From: Geobacter sp. SVR
GTDB lineage: Bacteria; Desulfobacterota; Desulfuromonadia; Geobacterales; Pseudopelobacteraceae
Reading direction: 5' to 3'
Assembly (NCBI RefSeq): GCF_016865365.1
Contig: NZ_AP024469.1
Location: 496,001-560,000 of the forward strand
Length of the DNA: 64,000 bases
Positions 24,830 to 58,085 of this stretch are shown piece after piece. The notes beneath the pieces were generated by a model. That model worked only from the letters and a program-made list of their open reading frames with translations, made no database searches and had not been told where the DNA came from. Position numbers and translations under genes: made by a program. Every line of letters starts with the position of its first letter. Position 1 is the first letter of the stretch.

Positions 24830-27800
24830 ATGGGAGTGTCACGCAGGGACTTTCTGAAACTCTCGGGAACGGGGCTGGCGGCAACCACCCTTGGCCTGAA
24901 CCTGTCGCCGCTGGAGGCAAGGGCGGAAGAACTCAGCATCCGCTACGCCAGGGAAACCACCACCATCTGTCCTTATTGCGCGGTCGGGTGCGGCATGATC
25001 GTCCATACCCTGGGGGGCAATGTTATCAACATCGAGGGAGACCCGGACCACCCCATCAATGAAGGTTCCCTCTGCCCCAAGGGCTCGTCCATCTACCAGT
25101 TGCGCGACAACAAGGCCCGCATCACCAAACCGCTCTACCGCGCCCCCGGTGCCACGGAGTGGAAGGAGGTTTCCTGGGACTGGGCCCTGGACGAGATCGC
25201 CAAAAAGGTCAAGAAGACCCGCGATACCTCCTTCGTAGCCACCTCCAGGATCAAGGTCAAGGAGAAGGTGGGCAACGCCGAGGTGGAGAATGAGATCGAA
25301 GCGGTGGTGAACCGCACCATGGGCATGGCCTCGGTGGGGAGCGCCGCCCTGGACAATGAAGAGTGTTACCTGTATCAAAAATTCCTCAGGGGGTTAGGCT
25401 TGGTGTATATCGAACACCAAGCACGCATTTGACACAGCGCTACGGTAGCGGCTCTGGCAGAGTCGTTCGGACGCGGTGCAATGACGAACCACTGGATCGA
25501 TCTGAAAAACTCCGATGTAATTCTCATCATGGGAGCCAACCCGGCCGAAAACCACCCGGTTTCCTTCCGCTGGATCATGAAGGCCAAAGACGCCGGTGCC
25601 AAGGTGATCTGCGTCGATCCCCGCTTTACCCGCAGCGCGGCGAGAGCCGATGTGTATGCTCCGCTCCGATCGGGTACCGACATCGCCTTCCTGGGCGGCA
25701 TGATCAACTACATTATCCAGAACAAGCTCTATTTCGGCGAATACGTCCGCAATTACACCAACGCCTCCTATCTGGTGAACGCCGACTTCAGGATGCCGGG
25801 GGATCTGGACGGCCTGTTCTCCGGCTATGCCCCCAAGAAGCGCAGCTACGACGTTAAGACATGGGGGTTCCAGAAGAACGAGGATGAAAGCGTCAAGAGA
25901 GACGCTACCCTGGAAGACCCGAACTGCGTCTTCCAGTTGATGAAGAAGCATTACTCCCGCTACACGCCGGAGTTGGTCTCGAAGATCACCGGCACACCCA
26001 GGGAGAAGCTTCTGGAAGTCTACAAGCTGTACGCTGCCTCCGGCGCACCGGATAAGGCCGGCACCTCCCTGTACGCCATGGGATGGACCCAGCATACCGT
26101 AGGGACCCAGAACATCCGCACCATGACCATCATCCAGCTCCTTCTGGGCAATATCGGCATTGCCGGCGGCGGGGTCAATGCCCTGCGGGGCGAGTCCAAC
26201 GTACAGGGATCCACCGACCACGGTCTGCTGTTCAACAGCCTGCCGGGCTACATGCCGGTGCCTTCGGCCGATCAGAAGGATACAGCCACCTACATCGAGA
26301 AAAACACTCCCAAGACCAATGATCCACAGAGCGCCAACTGGTGGGGCAACCGCAACAAGTATCTGATCAGCTACCTGAAGGCCATCTACGGTGCCAAGGC
26401 GACCAAGGAAAACGATTTCGGCTATGCCTGGCTCCCCAAGCTGGATCCCGGCATGAATGGCTCATGGATGATGATCTTCGACAACATGATCAAGGGCAAG
26501 TTCAAGGGATTCTTCGCCTGGGGCCAGAACCCGGCCTGTTCCGGCACCAACTCCACCAAGGTACGCAACGCCCTGACCAAGCTGGACTGGATGGTGGCGG
26601 TCAACCTGTTCGACAACGAAACCGCTTCATTCTGGAAAGGGCCGGGCATGGACCCGGCCAAGCTCAAAACCGAGGTGTTTCTGCTGCCGGCGGCAGCCTC
26701 CTTCGAGAAAGAGGGGAGTGTCACCAACTCGGGCCGCTGGGCCCAGTGGCGCTACACCGCAGTCAAACCGCTGGGGCAGAGCAAGCCGGACGCCGAGATC
26801 ATCCACGAGTTGTTCCAGAAGCTGAAGGAACTCTACACCAGGGAAGGGGGCGTTCTGCCGGAGCAGCTCACCCACCTGACTTGGAACTACGGCTTCAAGC
26901 GGGCCGACGGCACCATCAAGTCGGTGGACACCCATCTGGTGGCCAAGGAAATCAACGGCTATTTCCTGGAGGATGTGGAGGACAAGCCCAAGCTCAAGCC
27001 GGGCGAGGCGCCGCCACCCGCCCCGCCCCCCTGGACCCCCAAGAAGCTTCTGGGCAAAAAAGGGGAGCTGACCGGGGGCTTTGCCCAGTTGCAGGCGGAC
27101 GGCAGCACCTCCTGCGGCTGCTGGATCTACAGCCAGAGCTACAACGAGAAGGGGAACCTGATGGCCCGCCGGGTGAAGAAGGACCCCACCGGACTGGGGC
27201 TGTTCCCGGAGTGGTCCTGGGCCTGGCCGGTCAATCGCCGCATCATTTACAACCGCGCCTCCTGCGACCCGAACGGCAAGCCGTACAACCTGAAAAAAGC
27301 GGTAGTCTACTGGAATCCCGCAGTCGTGCTGCCGGACGGCAAGCTGGGCGCCTGGGTGGGGGACGTGCCCGACGGCCCCTGGCCCCCCATGTCCAACGAA
27401 AAAGAGGGAAAGAAGCCCTTCATCATGCGGGCCGACGGCCTGGCGGCCATCTTCGGGCCGGGCATGAAAGACGGCCCCTTCCCCGAGCATTACGAGCCGG
27501 TGGAGTCGCCCCTGGCGCAGAATTTCATGTCCAAACAGATGTCCAATCCAGCTGCCAAAAATTTCAGCGGCACCGACATCAAAGAAGACGCCTTTGCCGC
27601 CAATGACGGCACATTCCCCTACGTGGCCACCACCTACCGGGTGACCGAGCACTGGCAGACCGGGGTCATGACCCGCAATACCCCCTGGCTGCTGGAGTTG
27701 CAGCCGCGCCTGTTCTGCGAGATCAGTCCGGAACTGGCCAAGGAGAGATCCATCGGCAATGGGGACCTTGTGGAGGTATCATCGGCTCGCGGCAAGGTTG

Positions 27801-28006
27801 AGGCCGTGGCCGTGGTGACGCGCCGCATGCAGCCTTTCAAGCTCGGAGACAAGGTCGTGCACCAGATCGGCCTGCCCTACTGTTTCGGCTGGTCCACGCC
27901 AGGGGTGGGGGACAGCGCCAACCTGTTGACCCCTACTGCCGGTGACGCCAACACCATGATTCCCGAAACCAAGGCCTTCATGGCCGCTATCCAGAGAAAG
28001 GGGTGA
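24830..28006 (+). CDS. fdnG: Formate dehydrogenase 1, catalytic subunit, selenoprotein
   Basis: 1058 residues with an in-frame UGA at codon 201 read as selenocysteine (25430-25432), in the family context EHQAR-I-U-HSATVA. It oxidises formate to CO2 at a W/Mo-bis(MGD) centre. The Tat signal SRRDFLKLSGTG (residues 4-15) places it on the periplasmic side. A [4Fe-4S] ligand set CPYC-x3-C and SLCPKG follows near residues 47-82. Downstream of Sec come FGRGAMTNHW, MGANPAENHP and the C-terminal molybdopterin-binding domain. A Pro-rich stretch (EAPPPAPPPWTPKK) near residue 725 is unusual. It heads the operon fdnG-fdnH-fdnI-fdhE-mobA under a sigma-54 promoter. ATG at 24830 follows GGGAGG. Confidence 0.93.
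25430..25470 (+). promoter_or_regulatory. Selenocysteine UGA and SECIS region of FDH1
   Basis: TGA at 25430 is followed in frame by CACAGCGCTACGGTAGCGG, encoding the conserved His-Ser-Ala-Thr-Val. The next 38 bases can fold into a hairpin with a G(G)CTCT apical loop, similar to the E. coli fdhF SelB-binding element but less regular. Confidence 0.8.
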
Positions 28007-31380: not shown

Positions 31381-32493
31381 ATGAAAAAAGACGGTTTGCT
31401 CCCCGACGTTTCAAGACGGGATTTCATCAAAACATGCGTGACGGTTTCCGCCATGCTGGGGCTCCCGTTCGGGATGGTCAGCAAGGTGGCCGCTGCGGCT
31501 CAGAAGGGGGATAACCGACCGGCGGTAATCTGGCTCCATTTCCAGGAATGCACCGGTTGCTCGGAATCGCTGCTCCGTTCCACGCATCCCACGGTTTCGA
31601 GCTTGATCCTGGACATGATCTCCCTGGATTACCATGAGACACTCATGGCCGGTTCAGGGCACCAGGCGGAGAAGGCCCTGCACGATTCCATGCTGGCCAA
31701 CAAGGGCAATTACATCCTGGTGGTGGAAGGAGCCATCCCCACCAAAGACAACGGCATCTACTGCAAGGTGTCGGGCAAGACCGCCCTGGACTCGCTGAAA
31801 AAAGGGGCTGAAGGGGCCCTGGCCATCATCGCCATGGGCACCTGCGCCAGCTACGGCGGCATCCAGTCCGTGGGTCCCAACCCCACCGGCGCCGTGGGAG
31901 TGCGGGACATCGTCAAGGATAAGCCGATCATCAACATTCCTGGCTGTCCCCCCAACCCCTACAACTTCCTCTCCACGGTGCTCTACTACGCCACCTTCAA
32001 GAAACTGCCGGAGCTTGATCAGATGGGCAGGCCCAAGTTCGCCTACGGTCGCAAGATCCACGAACACTGCGAGCGGCGCCCTCACTTCGATGCCGGCCGC
32101 TTTGCCAAGGCCTACGGCGATCCGACCCATGCCGAGGGGTACTGCCTCTACAAGCTGGGGTGCAAGGGACCGGCCACCTTTGCCAACTGTTCGGTACAGC
32201 GCTTCAACGACGTGGGGGTCTGGCCGGTGTCGGTGGGGCATCCCTGCATCGGCTGCACCGAGCCGGACATCCTCTTCAAGACCGCCATTGCCGACAAGGT
32301 CCAGATCCACGAGCCGACCCCCTTCGACAGCTATGCTCCGGTTGACCTGAAGGAAAAGGGCAAGGGTCCCGATCCGTTGACCACCGGCGTGATCGGTCTG
32401 GCTGCCGGTGCCGCCATCGGTGCGGGGGTGATGATGGCCAAGCGGCTCCCCGATGGCCAGGACAAGGGGGACGACCATGGCAAAACCGAGTAG
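31381..32493 (+). CDS. hybO: Hyb-type [NiFe] hydrogenase small subunit
   Basis: 370 residues. Tat signal SRRDFIKTCVTVSA near residue 11 exports the folded heterodimer to the periplasm. FeS-cluster ligands are all present: QECTGCSES (proximal cluster Cys), GTCASYGG, PGCPPNPYNF, the His/Cys set HEHCERRPHF...GYCLYKLGCKGP for the distal cluster, and PCIGCTEP for the medial cluster. A C-terminal hydrophobic helix (VIGLAAGAAIGAGVMMAK) anchors it. The subunit carries electrons from the NiFe site to HybA. It is first in the operon hybO-A-B-C-D behind a sigma-54 promoter; AGAGG lies upstream of ATG 31381. Confidence 0.92.
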   Translation: MKKDGLLPDVSRRDFIKTCVTVSAMLGLPFGMVSKVAAAAQKGDNRPAVIWLHFQECTGCSESLLRSTHPTVSSLILDMISLDYHETLMAGSGHQAEKALHDSMLANKGNYILVVEGAIPTKDNGIYCKVSGKTALDSLKKGAEGALAIIAMGTCASYGGIQSVGPNPTGAVGVRDIVKDKPIINIPGCPPNPYNFLSTVLYYATFKKLPELDQMGRPKFAYGRKIHEHCERRPHFDAGRFAKAYGDPTHAEGYCLYKLGCKGPATFANCSVQRFNDVGVWPVSVGHPCIGCTEPDILFKTAIADKVQIHEPTPFDSYAPVDLKEKGKGPDPLTTGVIGLAAGAAIGAGVMMAKRLPDGQDKGDDHGKTE

Positions 32494-36739: not shown

Positions 36740-37228
36740 ATGAAAACACTGATATTCGGCGCCGGTAACCTGCTCCTCTCGGACGAGGGCTTCGGCGTTC
36801 ATTTCGTCAAATATCTGCAGGATAATTACCAATTTCCGGAAGACGTGGAATTGTACGACGGCGGGACCCTGGGGATCATGGTGACCCACTGGCTGGAGGA
36901 GGCCGACCAGGTCTACCTGGTGGACGTGGTCGAGGCCAAAGGGGAACCGGGGGATATTTACCGCTACGAGAAGGATGATTTCATGCTGGGCAGGTTGCCG
37001 GTCAAGCTGTCCCCGCATCAGATCGGCATCCAGGAAGTGTTGGCCCTGTCCGAGATCCGCGGGCGCTGTCCGGAGCAGGTGACCCTGCTGGGAGCGATTC
37101 CCGCTTCCTACGAGGCCGGCGTGGAGCTGTCCCCCGTTCTCGCGGAGAAACTGCCGGGACTGGCGGAACTGGTGGTAGGTGAGCTGCGTGAAAGCGGCCA
37201 CACCATAGCAGCGCTGCCTTCCCCCTGA
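36740..37228 (+). CDS. hybD: Hydrogenase maturation protease
   Basis: 162 residues, cytoplasmic nickel-dependent endopeptidase that clips the C-terminal tail of the large subunit after the active site is built. Family marks: FGAGNLLLSDEGFGVH (residues 5-20, with the nickel-binding Glu/Asp in LSDEGFG), YDGGTLG near residue 52 (second nickel ligand Asp), and VDVVEAKGEPGDIYR near residue 75, then SPHQIG with the conserved His near 92. It is last in the hyb operon. As the Hya cluster at 52631 lacks a protease gene, this enzyme or one outside the window must serve it. Confidence 0.9.
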   Translation: MKTLIFGAGNLLLSDEGFGVHFVKYLQDNYQFPEDVELYDGGTLGIMVTHWLEEADQVYLVDVVEAKGEPGDIYRYEKDDFMLGRLPVKLSPHQIGIQEVLALSEIRGRCPEQVTLLGAIPASYEAGVELSPVLAEKLPGLAELVVGELRESGHTIAALPSP

Positions 37229-41352: not shown

Positions 41353-41407
41353 TTTGCTCATATACGGACACGGTTCTCAGTGTCATCAATGAAAGGAGAT
41401 GTGTTGT

Positions 41408-44400
41408 ATGGGAATGTCACGTAGGCAGTTCCTGCAGGGGGGGGCGCTGGCAGCGGCCGGCATGGCCCTGCCCAAGCAGGGCGAGGCCAATGCCGATGCA
41501 CCGGCATTGCGCACCAAGGGGCTGAAAAGCTCCACCACCATCTGCCCCTTCTGTGCGGTCGGCTGCGGCCTGATCGTGCACACCAAGGACGGCAAGGTCG
41601 CCAATATCGAAGGTGACCCGCAGCATCCGATCAACCGCGGTTCGCTCTGCTCCAAAGGGAGCTCGCTCTTCCAGGTGGCGGTCAACGAGCGCCGGCTGCA
41701 GAAGGTCATGTACCGGGCCCCCGGCTCCGACACATGGGAAGAGAAGTCGTGGGACTGGGCCTTGGATCGCATTGCCCTTCGCATGAAGGAAACCCGCGAC
41801 AGGACCTTCAAGGCCACGGAAGTCAACAAGAAGGATAACAAGGAATACGTCGTCAATCGCACCGAAGGCATGGCCTATCTGGGTGGCGCCGGCCTCGACA
41901 ACGAGGAATGCTACCTCTGGTCGAAGTTCGCACGCTCCATGGGAGTGGCCCAGCTCGAACACCAGGCCCGATTATGACACTCCGCCACAGTCGCCGGTCT
42001 GGCGGCTTCGTTCGGTCGTGGTGCCATGACCAACCATTGGAATGACCTGAAGAACAGTGATGCAATCCTCGCCATCGGCTGCAACCCGGCCGAAAATCAT
42101 CCGATCTCCTTCAAGTGGATCGAAGAGGCGCTGGACAACGGCGGTACGCTGATTTCCGTCGACCCGCGCTATACCCGTACCTCTTCCAAAGCCGACATCT
42201 ACGCCCAGATCCGTCCGGGCACCGACATCGCCTTTCTGGGCGGCATGATCAACTACGCCCTGCAGCACAACCTGATCCACGAGGAATACGTGCGCGAATA
42301 TACCAACGCCGCCTTCATCGTGAACGAGAAGTTCGACTTCAAGGAGGGGATGTTCTGCTCCTTCGACGATCAGGAAAAGACCTATGATCCCAAGGCCTGG
42401 GCCTATGCCCTTGACGGCGCCGGCAACCCCCGTCGCGACATGAGCATGAAGGACCCGCGCTGCGTCTACCAACTGCTTAAAGTCCATTACTCCCGCTATG
42501 ACGTGGACACGGTCTGCAGCATCACCGGCACTCCCAAGGAAAGCTACCTCAAGGTCGCCAAAGCCTTCTGTGGCACCGGGCGTCCCGACAAGGCAGGCAC
42601 GATCCTTTATGCCATGGGCATCACCCAGTCGACCCACGGCACCCAGAACGTGCGTGCCGTGGCCCTGCTGCAGATGCTGCTGGGCAACATCGGCATCGCC
42701 GGCGGCGGCGTCAACGCGCTGCGCGGCGAGTCCAACGTGCAGGGTTCCACCGACTACGGTCTGCTGTTCCACACCTGGCCCGCCTACCTGAAATCGCCGG
42801 AATTCGACAACGTCGACCTGAAGGCCTACCTGGAGAAGTGGACCCCCAAGACCAAGGACCCCAAGAGCGCCAACTGGTGGGGCAATACCCCCAAGTACAC
42901 GGTCAGCATGCTGAAAGCCTGGTACGGGGATAACGCCACCAAGGAAAACGACTTCTGCTTCGGCCTGCTGCCCAAACGCAGCGGAAACTACGCCTATGAC
43001 AAGATCATCGAAAAGATGGGCAAAGGGGGCATCGAGGGCCTTGTCTGCATGGGCATGAACCCGGCCGTGGGCGGTCCCGACTCCCAGGCGGCCCGCCAGG
43101 CGCTCAGCAAGCTGAAATGGCTGGTGACGGTCGACCTGTGGGAAACCGAGACCTCCATTTTCTGGAAACGCCCCGGCGTCAATCCCAAGGATATTCAGAC
43201 CGAGGTCTTCATGCTGCCGGCCGCCTCGTCGGTGGAAAAGGAGGGTTCCATCTCCAACTCCGGCCGCTGGGCCCAGTGGCGCTACAAGGCCGTGGAGCCG
43301 GTGGGGCAGTCCATGAGCGACCTGTGGATCATCGACCAGTTCCACAAACGGGTCAAGGCGCTCTATGCCAAAGGGGGCACCTTCCCGGAGCCGATCACCA
43401 AGCTCGCCTGGAACTACGGCAATGGCCACGAGCCTGACGTGCACCTGGTGGCCAAGGAGATCAACGGCTATTTCACCAAGGACACGACCATTGTGGACAA
43501 GGACAAGACCCTGGAGTTCAAGGCCGGGGACCAGGTCCCGATGTTCAAATACCTGCAGGACGACGGTTCCACCGTGTCCGGCTGCTGGATCTACTGCGGC
43601 TCCTACACCAAGGAGGGCAACCAGATGGCCCGCCGCGACGCCGGCGACCCTACCGGCCTGGGAATGTATCCCAAGTGGTCGTGGTGCTGGCCGGTCAACC
43701 GCCGCATCATCTACAACCGCGCCTCGGTCAATCCGGACGGCGTGCCCTTCAACCCCAAGCGGGCCGTCATCGCCTGGGACGCGTTGGAGAAGAAGTGGAA
43801 AGGGGATGTGCCCGACGGTCCCTGGCCCCCCATGAACGATGCCAAGGAGGGCAAATATCCCTTCATCATGGTGGCCGAAGGCCATGGCCGGCTCTACGGC
43901 CTGGACCTCAAGGACGGCCCCTTCCCCGAGCACTACGAGCCGGTGGAGAGCCCGACCCGCAACCTGCTCTCCAAGGTGCAGAACAACCCGGTGGTCAAAC
44001 TGCCCAAGAACGTCTCCAGCGACCTGGGCAAGTTCCCCTTCATCGGCACCACCTACCGCATGACCGAGCACTGGCAGACCGGCGGCATGACCCGCAGCCT
44101 GCCCTGGCTGGTGGAACTGGTACCGGACATGTTCGTCGAGATCAGCGAAACCCTGGCACGCCAGAAAGGGATCAAGAAAGGGGACAAGGTGCGGGTGACC
44201 ACCGAGCGTGGCACCATCGAAGGGATCGCGCTGGTGACGGCACGTCTCAAGCCGTTCACCGTGGGGGACAAACAGGTCGAGCAGGTCGGTATGCCGTGGC
44301 ATTTCGGCTATTCCGGCCTGACGAAAGGCGACAGCGCCAATGTGCTGACCGCCTCGGTCGGCTGCGCCAACACCAACATTCCGGAGTTCAAAGCCTTCCT

Positions 44401-44434
44401 CTGCAACATAGAGAAAGGGGGTAACAAAGCATGA
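41408..44434 (+). CDS. fdnG: Formate dehydrogenase 2, catalytic subunit, selenoprotein
   Basis: 1008 residues with Sec encoded by UGA at codon 190 (41975-41977) in EHQARL-U-HSATVAG. W/Mo-bis(MGD) enzyme oxidising formate in the periplasm. Tat signal SRRQFLQGGALAAAG (residues 4-18), FeS motif CPFCAVGCG...SLCSKGSS, then SFGRGAMTNHW and CNPAENHP after the Sec. It is a paralogue of FDH1 (conserved along the whole length) but lacks the Pro-rich insertion. ATG at 41408 is preferred because AGGAG is 9 bases upstream; ATG codons at 41399 and 41414 are also in frame. First gene of the operon alpha-beta-NrfD-mobA. Confidence 0.93.
41975..42015 (+). promoter_or_regulatory. Selenocysteine UGA and SECIS hairpin of FDH2
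   Basis: TGA at 41975 is followed by CACTCCGCCACAGTCGCCGG. The apical stem CGCC-GGTCT-GGCG has the GGUCU loop typical of bacterial SECIS elements bound by SelB, at the usual distance from the UGA. Confidence 0.87.
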
Positions 44435-49438: not shown

Positions 49439-50290
49439 ATGAAACGGGGAAAACATCTTATCTGGCTGATGACTGTCTGGACGTTGGTTCTGGCCCTGGC
49501 GCTTCCGGCCGTTGCGGCCAACAAGTCCGTCATCCTTGCCACCACCACCAGCACGCAGGATTCGGGACTTCTGGACCTGCTGGTGCCGGTGTTCGAGAAG
49601 GATAGCGGCTACAGCGTCAAGACCATTGCAGTCGGCTCCGGCCAGGCCATGGCCATGGGCAAAAAAGGGGAGGCCGATGTGCTGCTGGTGCATTCACCCG
49701 ATGCGGAAAAGGCCTTCATGGCGGAAGGGTCCGGCAGCAGCCGCCGGCTGGTGATGCACAACGACTTCGTGCTGGTGGGCCCGGCTGCGGACCCGGCCAG
49801 GATCAAGACCGCCAAGACGAGCGCAGAAGCGCTGCAACGTATCGCCCAGAGCGGTGCCCTGTTCGTTTCGCGCGGCGACAATTCCGGCACCCATGCCAAG
49901 GAAAATTCGCTCTGGAAAAGCGCCGGGATCAAGCCCGACGGCCAGAAATGGTACCAGCAGACCGGACTGGGCATGGGGCAGACCCTCAATGTTGCCGCTG
50001 AGAAGAAATGCTACACCCTGACCGACCGGGCCACCTACCTGGCGCTCAAGAAGGGGCTCAACCTGGAGATCCTGCTGGAGGGTGACACCAAGCTGCTGAA
50101 CATCTATCACGTGATCGAGCTGAACACTGCCCGCTGGCCCAAGGTCAACGCCGCCGGTGGCAAGGCCTTTGCCGACTTCATGGTCTCCCGCAAGGCCCAG
50201 GACCTGATCGGCCGCTTCGGCGTGGAGAAGTTCGGCGCGCCTCTGTTCTTCCCGGATGCCGGTAAAAAGCCGGAGTCGCTGGGGCTCTGA
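49439..50290 (+). CDS. tupA: Tungstate ABC transporter, substrate-binding protein
   Basis: 283 residues with a Sec signal peptide (LIWLMTVWTLVLALALPAVAA, cleaved near residue 27). The mature start VILATTTSTQDSGLLDLLVP holds the TTTS oxyanion loop that distinguishes TupA from molybdate-binding ModA. Further marks: GSGQAMAMGKKGEADVLLVH and SRGDNSGTHAKE. It captures tungstate in the periplasm and delivers it to TupB/TupC. Tungsten supply matches the two formate dehydrogenases of the window. AGGAGGT precedes ATG 49439; the stop touches the tupB start. Confidence 0.9.
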   Translation: MKRGKHLIWLMTVWTLVLALALPAVAANKSVILATTTSTQDSGLLDLLVPVFEKDSGYSVKTIAVGSGQAMAMGKKGEADVLLVHSPDAEKAFMAEGSGSSRRLVMHNDFVLVGPAADPARIKTAKTSAEALQRIAQSGALFVSRGDNSGTHAKENSLWKSAGIKPDGQKWYQQTGLGMGQTLNVAAEKKCYTLTDRATYLALKKGLNLEILLEGDTKLLNIYHVIELNTARWPKVNAAGGKAFADFMVSRKAQDLIGRFGVEKFGAPLFFPDAGKKPESLGL

Positions 50291-50988
50291 TGGACCTGAT
50301 CCTGGATGGCATCCGGACGGCGCTCAGGCTGCTGGCCTCGCTCGACAGCGAAGTGCTGGCGGTCACGCTGCTGTCGCTCAAGATCTCGTGCTGTGCCACC
50401 CTGGTGAGCCTCGTGCTCGGCATTCCCTCCGGCACACTGCTGGCGCTGGCCGATTTTCCCGGCCGGCGCCTGATCGTAAGCCTGGTGAATACCGGCATGG
50501 GGCTGCCGCCGGTGGTGGTGGGCCTGTTCGTGACGATCCTGCTCTGGCGCAACGGCCCCCTGGGCTTCCTGGAAATCCTATACACCCCCTGGGCCATGAT
50601 TTTCGCCCAGGCCGTGATCGCCACCCCGATCGTGGCAGGCATCACCATTGCCTCGATTCAGAAACTGCCCCCCAACCTCAAGCTGCAGGTGCTGGCCCTG
50701 GGGGCGACCCGCACCCAGATGGTCCGGATTCTGGTCAGGGAGGCGCGGCTGCCGCTTCTGGCAGCGGTCATGGCCGGATTTGGCGGGGTGATATCCGAGG
50801 TGGGCGCTTCCATCATGGTGGGGGGCAACATCAAGGGCTCCACCCGCGTGCTGACCACCGCCACGGTGATGGAGACGGGCAAGGGCAACTTCGATGTGGC
50901 CATTGCCCTCTCGATCATCCTGCTGCTGCTGGCCTTTGGCGTCAACTACGTGCTGACCGTGATCCAGCAGAGGGAGCGTCCGCGATGA
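50290..50988 (+). CDS. tupB: Tungstate ABC transporter, permease
   Basis: 232 residues with about five or six membrane helices. The permease EAA loop is visible as LALGATRTQMVRILVREARLPLL near residue 135, the contact site for the ATPase. It follows tupA without a gap and overlaps tupC by four bases (ATGA), consistent with one transcript. It forms the inner-membrane channel for tungstate. The alternative of a molybdate or phosphate permease is disfavoured by the tupA type of binding protein. Confidence 0.88.
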   Translation: MDLILDGIRTALRLLASLDSEVLAVTLLSLKISCCATLVSLVLGIPSGTLLALADFPGRRLIVSLVNTGMGLPPVVVGLFVTILLWRNGPLGFLEILYTPWAMIFAQAVIATPIVAGITIASIQKLPPNLKLQVLALGATRTQMVRILVREARLPLLAAVMAGFGGVISEVGASIMVGGNIKGSTRVLTTATVMETGKGNFDVAIALSIILLLLAFGVNYVLTVIQQRERPR

Positions 50989-51722
50989 GTGCCGACCATT
51001 CCCTGCTGCACGTCGAGCACCTGCGCATCAGGCGCGGAGGAGTGCAGGTGCTGGAACTGCCCCACTTTTCGATCCGTGCCGAGGAGAAGGTGGCGGTGAT
51101 CGGCCCCAACGGTGCCGGCAAGTCCAGCCTGCTCCTGGGGCTGGCCTGCCTGATCCCCCGGGATGGCGGCAGGATCGCCTTTGAGGGGCACGAGGTGGCG
51201 GCTCACGACGAGATGGCCTACCGGCGCCGGATCGCGATGGTCTTCCAAGAACCGCTGCTGTTCGATACCACCGTGCTGGACAATGTGGCCGAAGGGCTGC
51301 GCATACGCGGCACCGGGCGCACAGAGGCCCGCCGGCTCGCCCTGGAGAGCCTCGAACTTCTGAAGGTGGGGCACCTGGCAGCACGTTCTGCTCACAAGCT
51401 CTCGGGTGGTGAGGCCCAGCGGGTCAGCCTGGCGCGGGCCTTTGCAGTCAGGCCCCGGCTGATCCTGATGGACGAGCCCTTTTCCAGCCTCGATCTGCCG
51501 ACCCGGATCGCCCTGGCCGAGGACCTGGGGAACATCCTTCACAAATCCGGCACCGCGGCGATCATAGCCACCCACGACCGCATCGAGGCGTTGCGGGTGG
51601 TGGATCGCCTGGTTGTCATGGATCGGGGCGTTGTCGTTCAGGAAGGCACGCCCAAGGAGGTCATGGCGCAGCCGGCCAACGACTTCGTGGCGGCATTCCG
51701 CCGCACGACCGCCCCCCGCTGA
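50985..51722 (+). CDS. tupC: Tungstate ABC transporter, ATP-binding protein
   Basis: 245 residues, a single ABC ATPase. Walker A GPNGAGKSSLLLG near residue 38, Q-loop in MVFQEPLLF, signature LSGGEAQRVSLARA near residue 140, Walker B RLILMDEPFSSLD and the switch His in IIATHDRIEA. It energises tungstate uptake at the cytoplasmic face. ATG 50985 overlaps the tupB stop. No C-terminal regulatory (TOBE) domain follows, unlike ModC. Terminator at 51817. Confidence 0.9.
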   Translation: MSADHSLLHVEHLRIRRGGVQVLELPHFSIRAEEKVAVIGPNGAGKSSLLLGLACLIPRDGGRIAFEGHEVAAHDEMAYRRRIAMVFQEPLLFDTTVLDNVAEGLRIRGTGRTEARRLALESLELLKVGHLAARSAHKLSGGEAQRVSLARAFAVRPRLILMDEPFSSLDLPTRIALAEDLGNILHKSGTAAIIATHDRIEALRVVDRLVVMDRGVVVQEGTPKEVMAQPANDFVAAFRRTTAPR

Positions 51723-52569: not shown

Positions 52570-52630
52570 TTATGTCATCAGAGTATCATGGCTTTTGAGG
52601 ACATTTCGTCGGGTACTGCGGGAGGCGCTC

Positions 52631-53800
52631 ATGCCCATACCGGTCCGGAAGCGAGATGATGATACGTCCACCACCATCGCCGAGGCGCTGAGCGAGCATG
52701 GTGTCACCCGCCGCCAGTTTCTTCAGTTCTGCACCGCCATGTCGGCCACGCTGGCGCTTCCCGGACTGTTCGTTCCCCGGATAGCCAGTGCCCTGGAGCA
52801 GGCCAAGCGGCCGACCCTGGTCTGGATGGAATTCCAGGAATGCTGCGGCAATATCGAAGCCTTCCTGCGGGCTGCCAATCCCACGGTGTCCGATATCATC
52901 CTCGACATTATCTCCCTCGATTACAACGAAACCATCATGGCGGCCTCGGGCCAGCAGGCGCACGAGGCACTCGCCAAGGTGGTCAAGGAGCAGAAAGGCT
53001 CCTACATCGCAGCGGTGGAGGGATCGATCCCCCTCAAGCAGGGGGGCATCCACTGCTGTATCGGCGGCCGGACCGCCCTGGAGCTCGCCCGTGAGGTGTG
53101 CGGCAACGCCCTGACCACCATTGCGGTAGGAAGCTGCGCCGCCTTTGGCGGCGTGCCGGCGGCCTCGCCCAATCCCACCGGAGCGGTGGGGGTCAAGGAC
53201 GCCGTGTCCGGCATCAAGCTCATCAACCTGCCCGGCTGTCCCGCCAATACCGACAACATCACCGCAACGCTGGTCCATTATCTGGTCTTCAACAAGCTGC
53301 CCGAGACCGACCGCTTCGGTCGCCCCCTGTTCGCCTACGGCAAGCGCATTCACGACAATTGCGAGCGGCGCTCCCACTTCGATTCGGGCCAGTATGTGGA
53401 GCAATGGGGCGACATGGCCCATCGCCAGGGGCACTGCCTCTACAAGATGGGATGCAAGGGACCGGAAACCTTCCACAACTGCCCCAGCCAGCGCTACAAC
53501 CAGCGCGTCAGCTGGCCGGTGGCTGCCGGGCACGGCTGTGTGGGCTGTTCCGAGCCGCAGTTCTGGGACACCATGGCCCCCTATTACCACAGGTTGCCGC
53601 ACGTGCCCGGCTTCGGCATCGAACATACGGCGGACAAGATCGGCGCAGGCCTGGCCATAGGCACGGCAGCGGCCTTTGCCGCCCACGGCGTCATCAGTGC
53701 GCTGCGCAAGGATGACAAATCGGAAGGAACCAGGGGAGAAAAGCATGGCGAGGATCGTGATAGACCCGATAACGCGGATCGAAGGCCACCTGAGGATTGA
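52631..53800 (+). CDS. hyaS: Hya-type [NiFe] hydrogenase small subunit, altered proximal-cluster motif
   Basis: 389 residues from ATG 52631 (GGGAGG 6 bases upstream). Tat signal TRRQFLQFCTAMSATLALPG near residue 27. Cluster ligands: GSCAAFGG, LPGCPANTDN, the distal/medial region HDNCERRSHF...HCLYKMGCKGP and HGCVGCSEP. The first motif is EC-C-G-N-I-E, where the family usually has EC-T-G/C-C-S/T-E: the residue in the second proximal-cluster position is Asn and a Cys sits two positions earlier. A C-terminal helix (IGAGLAIGTAAAFAAHGVI) anchors it. The gene overlaps the next one by 56 bases. By layout it resembles Geobacter hyaS. Confidence 0.85.
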   Translation: MPIPVRKRDDDTSTTIAEALSEHGVTRRQFLQFCTAMSATLALPGLFVPRIASALEQAKRPTLVWMEFQECCGNIEAFLRAANPTVSDIILDIISLDYNETIMAASGQQAHEALAKVVKEQKGSYIAAVEGSIPLKQGGIHCCIGGRTALELAREVCGNALTTIAVGSCAAFGGVPAASPNPTGAVGVKDAVSGIKLINLPGCPANTDNITATLVHYLVFNKLPETDRFGRPLFAYGKRIHDNCERRSHFDSGQYVEQWGDMAHRQGHCLYKMGCKGPETFHNCPSQRYNQRVSWPVAAGHGCVGCSEPQFWDTMAPYYHRLPHVPGFGIEHTADKIGAGLAIGTAAAFAAHGVISALRKDDKSEGTRGEKHGEDRDRPDNADRRPPED

Positions 53801-55442
53801 GGCGGAGCTGGCCGGCAACAGGATCGTCGATGCCTGGAGCAGCAGCACCATGTTCCGCGGCATCGAAAAGATCCTGCAGGGACGTGACCCGCGCGACGCC
53901 TGGTACATCACCCAGCGCATCTGCGGCGTGTGCACCACGGTGCATGCCATTGCCTCCATACGGGCCGTTGAATCGGCCCTTGGCATCAGGATACCCCCCA
54001 ATGCCGAGCTGATCCGCAATATCATCATCGGCATCCAGAACGTGCAGGATCACGTCATCCATTTCTACCACCTGCATGCGCTGGATTGGGTGGACATCAC
54101 CTCGGCCCTGCAGGCCGACCCCGCTAAAACGGCGACCCTGGCCGGCTCCATCTCCGCCTGGCCCGGCAATTCGGTGCAGCGTTTCGCGGCGGTGCGCGAC
54201 AGGCTCAAGAAGTTCGTGTCATCGGGCCGTCTGGGCCCTTTTGCCAACGCCTATTGGGGGCATCCCGCCTATCGTCTGCCACCGGAGGCCAACCTGATGG
54301 CGGCCTCCCACTACCTCGAAGCACTGGACTGGCAGCGGGAGGTGATCAGGATCCATGCGATACTGGGCAGCAAAAATCCCCATCCGCAGACCTTCCTGGT
54401 GGGGGGCATGGCCATCCCCATCGATCCCGACTCCCAGAACGCCCTGAATGCCGACCGGCTGGCCACCATCCGCAGGCTTCTGGTCCAGGCGCAGGAATTC
54501 GTCGAGCAGGTCTATATCCCCGACCTGATCGCCGTGGGCTCCTTTTACAAGGAATGGGCCGGCATCGGGGCAGGGGTCGGCAATTACCTCTGCTACGGCG
54601 ATTTTCCCGACCCGGCCACCGGTGCGCAGTGGATAAAGCCGGGCATCGTGATGAACAAGGACCTGTCAAAGGTCCTGCCGGTCGATCATGTCAAGATCAG
54701 CGAATATGTCGATCACTCCTGGTACAAGTACGCGGCCGGCGAGGGCAAGGGGCTGCACCCCTGGGAAGGGGAGTCGGAGGAGAACTACACCGGTCCAAAG
54801 CCCCCGTATGCGCAGCTGGATACGAATGCCCGGTATTCGTGGGTCAAGGCGCCCCGCTATCAGGAGCAGCCGATGGAAGTGGGGCCGCTGGCGCGGATGC
54901 TGGTGGCCTATGCCGCCGGGCACAAGCAGGTTCAGGCCGCGGTGAACGATCTGCTCGGGAAACTGTCGGTCGGCCCGGAGGCGCTCTTCTCCACGCTCGG
55001 CCGTACCGCGGCGCGCGGAATCGATGCCCTGCTGATGGCGCGCCAGAGCCTGGTCTGGGCCGATGCCCTGGCCGATTCCATGGCAAAAGGGGACTACCGC
55101 ATCCATGCCGGCCGGATGTGGGAACCTTCCTCCTGGCCCGCCACCGCCGCCGGCTACGGCTGGCACGAAGCCCCGCGGGGAGCCCTGGGGCACTGGATCA
55201 AGATCAAGGACCAGAAGATCGTCAATTACCAGGCAGTGGTGCCCACGACCTGGAATGCCTCGCCACGCGATGGAAAAGGCTTGCGGGGGCCGTACGAAGC
55301 TGCCCTGATCGATACGCCGGTGGCTGATGCGCAGAAACCGCTGGAGATATTGCGCACGATCCACTCCTTTGATCCCTGCCTGGCATGTGCCGTTCACGTG
55401 GTTGCCCCGGGTGAGGAAACATTTGCGGTCAGGACTTCCTGA
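53745..55442 (+). CDS. hyaL: Hya-type [NiFe] hydrogenase large subunit
   Basis: 565 residues. NiFe ligands in RICGVCTTVHA near residue 58 and DPCLACAVH near the C-terminus, followed by the cleaved tail VVAPGEETFAVRTS. Periplasmic with the small subunit. It is a paralogue of HybC at 34938 (similar throughout, e.g. SWPGNSVQRFAAV and YWGHPAYRLPPEANLM). ATG 53745 was chosen because GGGGAGAAAAGC precedes it and MARIVIDPITRIEGHLRIE is the family start; the frame overlap of 56 bases with the small subunit is unusual. There is no dedicated protease gene in this cluster. Confidence 0.92.
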   Translation: MARIVIDPITRIEGHLRIEAELAGNRIVDAWSSSTMFRGIEKILQGRDPRDAWYITQRICGVCTTVHAIASIRAVESALGIRIPPNAELIRNIIIGIQNVQDHVIHFYHLHALDWVDITSALQADPAKTATLAGSISAWPGNSVQRFAAVRDRLKKFVSSGRLGPFANAYWGHPAYRLPPEANLMAASHYLEALDWQREVIRIHAILGSKNPHPQTFLVGGMAIPIDPDSQNALNADRLATIRRLLVQAQEFVEQVYIPDLIAVGSFYKEWAGIGAGVGNYLCYGDFPDPATGAQWIKPGIVMNKDLSKVLPVDHVKISEYVDHSWYKYAAGEGKGLHPWEGESEENYTGPKPPYAQLDTNARYSWVKAPRYQEQPMEVGPLARMLVAYAAGHKQVQAAVNDLLGKLSVGPEALFSTLGRTAARGIDALLMARQSLVWADALADSMAKGDYRIHAGRMWEPSSWPATAAGYGWHEAPRGALGHWIKIKDQKIVNYQAVVPTTWNASPRDGKGLRGPYEAALIDTPVADAQKPLEILRTIHSFDPCLACAVHVVAPGEETFAVRTS

Positions 55443-55453
55443 AGGGGGAAACG

Positions 55454-56107
55454 ATGGCCAATGATCTGCGGCAAGAGTATGTCTGGGAGGTTCCGGTACG
55501 GGTGACACACTGGGTGAATTTCCTGGCGATCATCGTCCTGTCGGTCACCGGCCTGTACATCGGCTCACCACTGACCCTGACCGTGGATCCCACCCGTTTC
55601 TACATGGGCACCATCCGCTTCATTCATACGACTACGGCCTACATCTTCACCATCAGCGTCTTTGCCCGCATTTACTGGGCCTTTGTCGGCAACCGCTATG
55701 CCGGCTGGCGGGAGTTCGTGCCGTGGTACAGCCCGGAAGGGCGCCGCAACATGGCGCTGACCCTGCGCTACTACATGTTTGTCGACAGGCAGGTGCCGAA
55801 CGTGGTCGGCCACAATGCGCTGGCCGGTGCCACCTATCTGCTCGTGTTCCTGCTGTACCTGGTCATGATCGTCACCGGCTTTGCCCTGTATTCCCAGTCC
55901 GCTCCGGACGGCGTGTTCCAGCATCTGCTGGGATGGCTGTTCAGGCTATTCACGAACCAGGGGATGCGCCTGGTTCATCATATGGGCATGTGGTTCCTGA
56001 TCGCCTTTGCGATACACCATGTCTACAGTGCCTGGCTGATGGATGTAAAAGAGCGGGGAGGGACCATGTCGAGTATTTTCGGCGGCTACAAACCGGTGCG
56101 CAGGTAA
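55454..56107 (+). CDS. hyaB: Hydrogenase cytochrome b subunit
   Basis: 217 residues with four membrane helices. b-heme histidines appear in RVTHWVNFLAIIVLSVTG near residue 16, FIHTTTAYIFTISV near 55, VGHNALAGATYLLVFLLYLV near residue 115 and MRLVHHMGMWFLIAFAIHHVY near residue 175. It hands electrons from the FeS chain of the hydrogenase to quinone. It is the third gene of the Hya-type cluster, following the large subunit by 11 bases with GGGGGAAACG as ribosome site. Named by Geobacter practice; it corresponds to E. coli HyaC. Confidence 0.88.
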   Translation: MANDLRQEYVWEVPVRVTHWVNFLAIIVLSVTGLYIGSPLTLTVDPTRFYMGTIRFIHTTTAYIFTISVFARIYWAFVGNRYAGWREFVPWYSPEGRRNMALTLRYYMFVDRQVPNVVGHNALAGATYLLVFLLYLVMIVTGFALYSQSAPDGVFQHLLGWLFRLFTNQGMRLVHHMGMWFLIAFAIHHVYSAWLMDVKERGGTMSSIFGGYKPVRR

Positions 56108-56210: not shown

Positions 56211-58085
56211 ATGCCCTCAGACGTCAATCGAGCACCTATGAGACACCTGGCGATACGAACAAAGCTGATATGCCTGGTCGTGTTCATGTCGGTCGTGCTG
56301 ATCGGGGTCGGTGTCCTCGGCCTGAACGGCATGAAGGACGCCAGGACCAGCCTGGAAATGATCTACAGCGATCGGCTGCTGTGCGTGATACAGCTGGCCC
56401 TGATCGGAGAGCAGTTCTCCGATGCCGTGCGGGAAATGCTGCAGTCGGTCGAGCATGACCGGACCGGTGACGACGGCACGGGTATGTACAAAAACCACGA
56501 ACAGCATGCCGCGAAAGTTGAGGCCGATCTTGCCGAAGTAGACAAAACCTGGCGCAGGTATATGGCCAGTTATCTCACACCGGAAGAGAAGGTGCAGGCG
56601 GACAGCACCCGGTCGCGCTTCACCGACCTGGTGGAGCAGGGGATCAAGCCGGGCATCGCTTTGATGAAAAGCAAGGATATGGCCGGGCTGGACGCGCACA
56701 TCAGGAATGTGGTGCTGCCGCTCGCCAGCAAAACCCATGCTGCACTCGATATCCTCATCAGGCTTCAGGGCCAGATGACCGAATCGGAGCTGGCGCAGGA
56801 TGCCACGAAGTACCGTGTCAGGCTCACGGTATATGTCATCGGCATCATACTGGCGGTAGTGGCCGGTCTGGTGATCGGTGCCGTGACCACCAGGTCGGTG
56901 ACGGGTTCAGCCAATCTCCTCAGAAAGAGAGAGACCCATTACCGCACCCTGTTCGAGAGCGCCAACGACACGCTGCTGATCATGAGCGGAACCACTGTCG
57001 TCGATTGCAACAGAAAGGCTCTGGAAATGTTCCGCGGCACACGGGAGCAGGTGATCGGCTCTTCGCCGGCGAGCCTTTCGCCCGATTTCCAGCCCGACGG
57101 GAAACGGAGCGACGAGGAGGTTCGCAGGCGCATAAGCGCCTGCCTGGAGGGGCATTCGCAGCTGTTCGAGTGGCAGCACAGGCGCCTGGACGGCATGCTC
57201 TTCGACGCGGAGGTGGCGCTGAACCTTGTCGAAGCGGATGGTGAAGGAATCTCCCTGGGCATACTCCGCGATATTACCGATCGCAAGCACCATGAACAGG
57301 AACTGCTGAGGGCCCGCCAGGGCGCAGAAGCGGCCAACCGTACCAAGAGCCAGTTTCTGGCGAATATGAGCCATGAGCTGCGAACCCCCATGGCCGGTGT
57401 GCTCGGCATGCTCGAGCTCGTCCTTGGAGGGCCCCTTGAGGAGGAACAGCGGGAATTCATCGCCACAGCCCATAAATCGGCCGGTTCCATTGTCGGCATA
57501 CTCAACGACATCCTCGAAATGACCAGGATCGAGGCGGGCATGTTCTTCCTGGTGGAAAAACCGTTCGACCTGCGGGAGTGCGTGGAAAGCGCCATCGACA
57601 TCTTCGAGTCCGAGGCTCGGCGCAAGCGGCTCGACATGATCCTGACGATGACGGGGGATCTTCCGGAACGCGTGGTCGGAGACTGTCTGCGGCTGCGCCA
57701 GGTGCTCACGAACCTGGTGGGAAACGCGGTCAAGTTCACCGAGCAGGGACGGGTGGAAATAAGGATCGCGGCAGGAGGCATCAGCCACGGCACCCGGCGG
57801 ACATTCATCTTTGCCGTGACCGATACCGGCATCGGTATTCCCGAAGACAAGAGACACCTGGTATTTCGCTCCTTCAGCCAGGTTAACGGCACCCACACCC
57901 GCAGATACGGTGGTGCCGGGCTCGGGCTGACGATCAGCAAGGAAATTGCGGAGCGGATGGGGGGAACGATAATGTTCGATTGCGCAGAGGGGGCGGGATG
58001 TACCTTCACGCTTTCCGTCCCCTTTGGAGAGACCGGGACGGAACCGCATTCCTCGATGGTGGACCGGAGCGGAGGGGCAGCGTGA
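56211..58085 (+). CDS. Sensor histidine kinase with 4-helix-bundle sensor and PAS
   Basis: 624 residues. TM1 (LICLVVFMSVVLIGVGVLGL, about 20-39), periplasmic four-helix-bundle domain of the chemoreceptor (4HB_MCP) type to about 205, TM2 (VYVIGIILAVVAGLVIGAVT), PAS domain (about 245-360), HisKA with FLANMSHELRTPMAGVLGM (His near 390), HATPase with DTGIGIPEDKRHLVF and GGAGLGLTISKEIA. The 4HB sensor suggests small-molecule or redox sensing. Its GTGA overlap with the receiver gene 58082 shows that the two form a pair. Start could also be ATG at 56238. Confidence 0.85.
   Translation: MPSDVNRAPMRHLAIRTKLICLVVFMSVVLIGVGVLGLNGMKDARTSLEMIYSDRLLCVIQLALIGEQFSDAVREMLQSVEHDRTGDDGTGMYKNHEQHAAKVEADLAEVDKTWRRYMASYLTPEEKVQADSTRSRFTDLVEQGIKPGIALMKSKDMAGLDAHIRNVVLPLASKTHAALDILIRLQGQMTESELAQDATKYRVRLTVYVIGIILAVVAGLVIGAVTTRSVTGSANLLRKRETHYRTLFESANDTLLIMSGTTVVDCNRKALEMFRGTREQVIGSSPASLSPDFQPDGKRSDEEVRRRISACLEGHSQLFEWQHRRLDGMLFDAEVALNLVEADGEGISLGILRDITDRKHHEQELLRARQGAEAANRTKSQFLANMSHELRTPMAGVLGMLELVLGGPLEEEQREFIATAHKSAGSIVGILNDILEMTRIEAGMFFLVEKPFDLRECVESAIDIFESEARRKRLDMILTMTGDLPERVVGDCLRLRQVLTNLVGNAVKFTEQGRVEIRIAAGGISHGTRRTFIFAVTDTGIGIPEDKRHLVFRSFSQVNGTHTRRYGGAGLGLTISKEIAERMGGTIMFDCAEGAGCTFTLSVPFGETGTEPHSSMVDRSGGAA

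Follow-up and report, generated by a model that had tools for sequence, protein, structure and literature searches.

Which residues hold the proximal cluster of a Hya-type hydrogenase when Asn stands where the second proximal Cys is expected and an additional Cys directly follows the first? The question is raised by a small-subunit gene in the window (the whole 64,000-nt stretch of the Geobacter sp. SVR genome that was analysed). It matters because the proximal cluster of [NiFe] hydrogenases sets their O2 handling and preferred direction, as established for other groups. The gene is the first of three subunit genes, all with open frames:

52631–53800, + strand: hyaS, [NiFe] hydrogenase small subunit with Tat signal RRQFLQF (TIGR00391, TIGR01409, PF01058, PF14720)
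53745–55442, + strand: hyaL, hydrogenase large subunit (PF00374, 783.1 bits; RICGVC and DPCLAC motifs)
55454–56107, + strand: hyaB, b-type cytochrome subunit (TIGR02125, 162.2 bits, cut-off 121.5)

The hyaS ORF was listed from a TTG at 52595, but by eye the ATG at 52631 looks the likelier start; that of hyaL was listed from 53676, and the ATG at 53745 gives MARIVIDPITRIEGH. The hyaS product is a group 1 [NiFe] hydrogenase small subunit, matching TIGR00391 at 432.7 bits (cut-off 179.5), with a Tat signal (TIGR01409, 21.3 against a cut-off of 16.7) and the Pfam domains PF01058 and PF14720. Behind hyaB there is a sensor histidine kinase gene (56211–58085) and no maturation protease gene.

The residues of interest are as follows, with counts from an alignment of 148 small subunits described below:

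52832–52858, + strand: proximal-cluster motif F-Q-E-C-C-G-N-I-E
52841–52843, + strand: Cys83, first proximal ligand (Cys in 148/148)
52844–52846, + strand: Cys84, extra cysteine adjoining the first ligand (Cys in 4/148)
52850–52852, + strand: Asn86 (AAT), where the second proximal Cys would be expected (128 Asp, 20 Asn, and no Cys among 148)
53135–53137, + strand: Cys181, proximal ligand in G-S-C (148/148)
53237–53239, + strand: Cys215, proximal ligand in P-G-C (148/148)

Read codon by codon, the region runs W (52823–52825), M, E, F (52832–52834), Q, E, then C83-C84-G85-N86, with G85 at 52847–52849, and on through I to E (52856–52858). The initial annotation had thus read the residues correctly, including Asn in the expected Cys column and Cys directly after the first Cys, but misplaced the motif at 52826–52849, and its overall range of 52823–52849 ends one codon short of the Asn. 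Its comparison with the Hyb small subunit of the same window, F-Q-E-C-T-G-C-S-E, agrees with the frame at 31381–32493. Its statement that all other ligands are intact was also right: C83, C181, C215, H253, C256, C281, C287, C296, C315, and C318 are all kept, and each of these ten positions (column 86 being left out) is invariant, at 148/148. Going by solved relatives, C83, C181, and C215 presumably serve the proximal cluster, H253, C256, C281, and C287 the distal, and C296, C315, and C318 the medial one.

The genome (one contig, 4,717,360 bases, 99.98% completeness) has five loci with a relative of this small subunit, and the Cys, Asp, and Asn versions of the second proximal position all occur within it. 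A second Hya (L002) is 65% identical to that of the window, has the motif C-T-G-D, and shares its operon with hyaL, hyaB, and a gene for a maturation protease (L196:4065-4628; TIGR00140, 159.6 bits, above the cut-off of 151.8). Two loci, L003 (in the window) and L004, are Hyb types, both with C-T-G-C. The last, L005, is of group-1h type, with C-D-G-D, a best solved match to 5aa5 (559.9 bits), and 28.7% identity to the window protein. Unlike that of the second copy, the window operon has no protease gene behind hyaB; maturation may take place in trans, by the protease of the second hya operon or that of the Hyb operon (36740–37228, TIGR00072).

To place the Asn among its relatives, 148 distinct small subunits were aligned, the window protein and 147 others at about 60–74% identity (59.9% and above), with L003, L004, and L005 set aside and duplicates dropped; a first pass had 138 rows. 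They came from named genome contigs (the best 80 of 254 relatives), 57 genomes near that of the window (loci of the best 30), 277 genomes of the class, 216 of them with a match (loci of the best 30), and 60 further hand-chosen regions, and so represent a sample of near relatives, drawn from part of the matches found, rather than hydrogenases at large. Among the best 80 of 254, record titles are mostly Geobacter, Geobacteraceae, Desulfuromonadaceae, or Deltaproteobacteria, many of them Geobacter, Geomonas, or Geotalea; there are also several Nitrospirae/Nitrospirota, two of Thermodesulfovibrio type, and one Chloroflexi. On one contig (G010:C11:29344-34208), two genes for Hya small subunits (L171 and L172) are separated by some 3 kb; they show 60% and 63% identity to the window protein.

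In the second proximal-ligand column of these 148 sequences there are 128 Asp, 20 Asn, and no Cys. The motif is CTGD in 78, CAGD in 32, CAGN in 19, CSGD in 13, CCGD in three, CAAD in two, and CCGN in the window protein only; position 84 is variable, with Thr, Ala, Ser, or Cys. The Cys described as usual in the initial annotation is therefore missing by comparison with Hyb-type enzymes, but it is found in none of the near relatives sampled. Asp or Asn in place of the second proximal Cys is a trait of the subgroup, not of a single gene, and is already in print. Two points keep their interest: the additional Cys next to the first ligand (4/148, and only once as CCGN) and repeated switching between Asp and Asn.

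The switching was followed on a quick maximum-likelihood tree, which was built from 140 rows with the motif columns left out. Support is weak for 50 of its 137 inner branches, and gains and losses are not distinguished in the counts of changes. A branch with SH-aLRT 100 separates 138 rows from L003 and L004, and the window protein falls with Geobacter-type Hya, apart from Hyb. (The label "group 1f" for this clade is taken from the excerpts of PMC5364354, not from a HydDB classification.) Asp and Asn change places at least 10 times, and with the Asn rows taken as one group, starred branches force at least six of these changes. Since they interchange so often on this tree, the two residues probably do similar work, and given such frequent switching the exact donor may be of little weight. 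Ala or Cys occupies position 84 in 20/20 Asn rows against 34/118 Asp rows; corrected for kinship, this leaves only six supported pairs, with the same direction in 0.8 on average. The window protein sits on a long end branch (0.51), the row closest to it in identity being at 73%, and may have changed in function.

Published work on the replaced cysteine covers several groups, among which Huc is presumably a member of group 2a. Table 1 of PMC4070099, in the excerpts of that paper, gives Cys to Asp at proximal position 2 for G. metalloreducens and Cys to Asn for N. punctiforme (Nostoc); in the same excerpts, C81D and C81N variants of an engineered A. macleodii enzyme evolved H2; activities were lowered among the substituted enzymes, and the screen covered H2 evolution alone. 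The excerpted text of PMC5364354 lists Asn or Asp for group 1f ("Roseoflexis", Geobacter, Frankia) and Asn for group 2a, where the Asn is said to coordinate a 4Fe4S cluster. For group 1h, the part of PMC6813726 consulted gives Asp for Cys in proximal cluster coordination and names this as the likely cause of O2 insensitivity. Density, EPR, and the fourth coordinating residue are the grounds on which all three clusters of Huc are assigned as [3Fe-4S] (PMC10017518, in part). On these partial texts the sources are at odds on Asn, a 4Fe4S cluster with Asn in group 2a (PMC5364354) standing against [3Fe-4S] in Huc (PMC10017518). In the open-licence literature searched, group 1f enzymes were represented by neither a structure nor EPR data, and no mention of the variant with consecutive cysteines turned up in searches framed more broadly than that motif.

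The reading that best fits these data, with a probability of about 0.66, is that the window encodes a periplasmic, membrane-linked Geobacter-type Hya (group 1f) with its proximal cluster on three cysteines and Asn at the fourth corner as a weak ligand or none. The estimate was lowered from 0.68 because the sources disagree both on the cluster type accompanying Asn and on what Hya does. Cys83, Cys181, and Cys215 would hold the cluster; the fourth iron would be weakly bound by Asn86 or water, or else absent, leaving a [3Fe-4S] cluster. A weak or missing fourth ligand would be expected to shift the cluster potential or make one iron labile. Either could suit the role in oxidative-stress defence reported for Geobacter Hya (PMC10582990, citing Tremblay and Lovley 2012, in the portion available) and might help when O2 is about. 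A role other than defence against O2 has also been put forward, the excerpts of PMC7894505 suggesting that Geobacter Hya produces H2 rather than taking it up. The suggestion of an unusual cluster in the initial annotation thus stands insofar as the fourth proximal position is not Cys, but not as a peculiarity of one protein, the column being Asp or Asn in 148/148 and already published as such. Its alternative of a fixed, already described subgroup motif holds for the loss of the Cys, while no support was found for the normal cluster chemistry that was to go with it.

With Geobacter Hya and group 1f, the window protein shares the replacement of the second proximal Cys by Asp or Asn with the other ligands kept (PMC4070099 and PMC5364354, both in excerpt), as well as a Tat signal and an operon with a large subunit and a b-type cytochrome; it differs in having a Cys directly behind the first ligand (CCGN). 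Among solved relatives, HoxK-type entries, of the O2-tolerant group 1d, match it best (334.9–321.8 bits), followed by Desulfovibrio 1h2a (316.7 bits) and then E. coli Hyd-1 (313.5 bits and below). Group 1d, however, has extra cysteines for its [4Fe-3S] cluster, and the window protein has Gly at those two columns; with C-C-G-N and G-S-C-A-A-F-G-G, against the TCC of u148842 and the GC of u148841, it is not a six-Cys enzyme of that group. The C-x-G-D column of group 1h (HofK, 5aa5, which reads C-D-G-D) is similar, but the window protein has Asn instead of Asp and is distant, its 90.4 bits to 5aa5 being the lowest of 43 matches listed; lacking C-D-G-D and with 5aa5 not its closest match, it falls outside group 1h. 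Group 2a enzymes are not known to undergo Tat export. Group 2a (cyanobacterial HupS, mycobacterial Huc) is reported to have Asn at the second proximal position (PMC5364354, in excerpt), but is far from the window protein in sequence (102.2 bits for 7utd, against 327.1 for HoxK 3rgw).

The other explanations differ mainly in what they make of the neighboring cysteines. Cluster N2 of complex I, whose NuoB subunit is a homologue, is ligated by tandem cysteines. By analogy, Cys84 could replace the lost Cys in a shifted, tandem-Cys ligation. Cys84 does co-occur with Asn86 in the window protein, and Cys at this position needs at least three changes on the quick tree, always where the canonical Cys is absent. 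But the three other sequences with consecutive cysteines keep Asp (CCGD) and so need no replacement, 19 of the 20 Asn sequences have Ala at 84, so Asn needs no rescuing Cys, and the position varies among T, A, S, and C in any case. Shifted ligation is therefore unlikely, and it is quite improbable that, with the second canonical Cys gone, Cys84 was recruited to make the consecutive cysteines a convergent copy of N2 in a hydrogenase. On the preferred reading, Cys84 is most likely a tolerated, and probably neutral, change at a variable position.

That the Asn marks a degenerating extra copy of hya has little probability. The long end branch would fit decay, as would the sensor kinase gene behind hyaB where the other copy has its protease gene, and the best matches in two genus mates (G001 and G002, putative orthologues) are just 64% and 66% identical. 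Against this, the three frames are open, the ten other ligands are intact, the Asn is common to 19 other distinct sequences, and residues 70–329 include only two odd residues at columns more than 90% conserved.

A pair of cysteines at 154–155 (H-C-C, 53054–53059) was considered as another possible source of a rescue ligand. At least one Cys is present at these positions in each of the 20 Asn rows, and Cys155 is found in 101/138 rows, the residue being Lys in the two paralogues of Hyb type. Nevertheless, 12 rows that form one clade, to which the second hya copy belongs, have neither cysteine (Y-G-S, Y-G-T, or Y-A-S) and keep Asp, and the CTGC enzymes L003 and L004, whose four ligands are normal, carry Cys154 as well. 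With both cysteines absent from 12 rows, rescue from this pair is very improbable.

Sequencing or assembly error, which the initial annotation had allowed for, can practically be dismissed together with a frameshift: CCGN is seen only once in 148, but the genome is a single contig 99.98% complete, the frame is open, and Asn or Asp is found in all 147 aligned relatives.

In Geobacter-type Hya enzymes, Asp and Asn appear to be interchangeable at one proximal ligand. The repeated switches provide a natural series (CTGD, CAGD, CAGN, CCGD, CCGN) for measuring the effect of that ligand, within which the Asn flagged here is ordinary and C-C-G-N a small variant.

Elsewhere in the window, the region upstream of hya (49439–51722) holds ABC transporter genes. 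The binding protein matches TupA at 239.2 bits, its sole match, and the permease has TupB as its best equivalog match, at 162.7 bits, both below the equivalog cut-offs (400 for TupA, 320 for TupB). This is likely a tungstate-type importer, which would suit the formate dehydrogenases nearby. There are two formate dehydrogenase-like large subunits in the window, at 24830–28006 and 41399–44434. In both genes, (I/L)-E-H-Q-A-R-(I/L) leads up to an in-frame TGA that splits the ORF and has a His codon behind it; this is the pattern expected for selenocysteine, for which the TGA is a putative codon.
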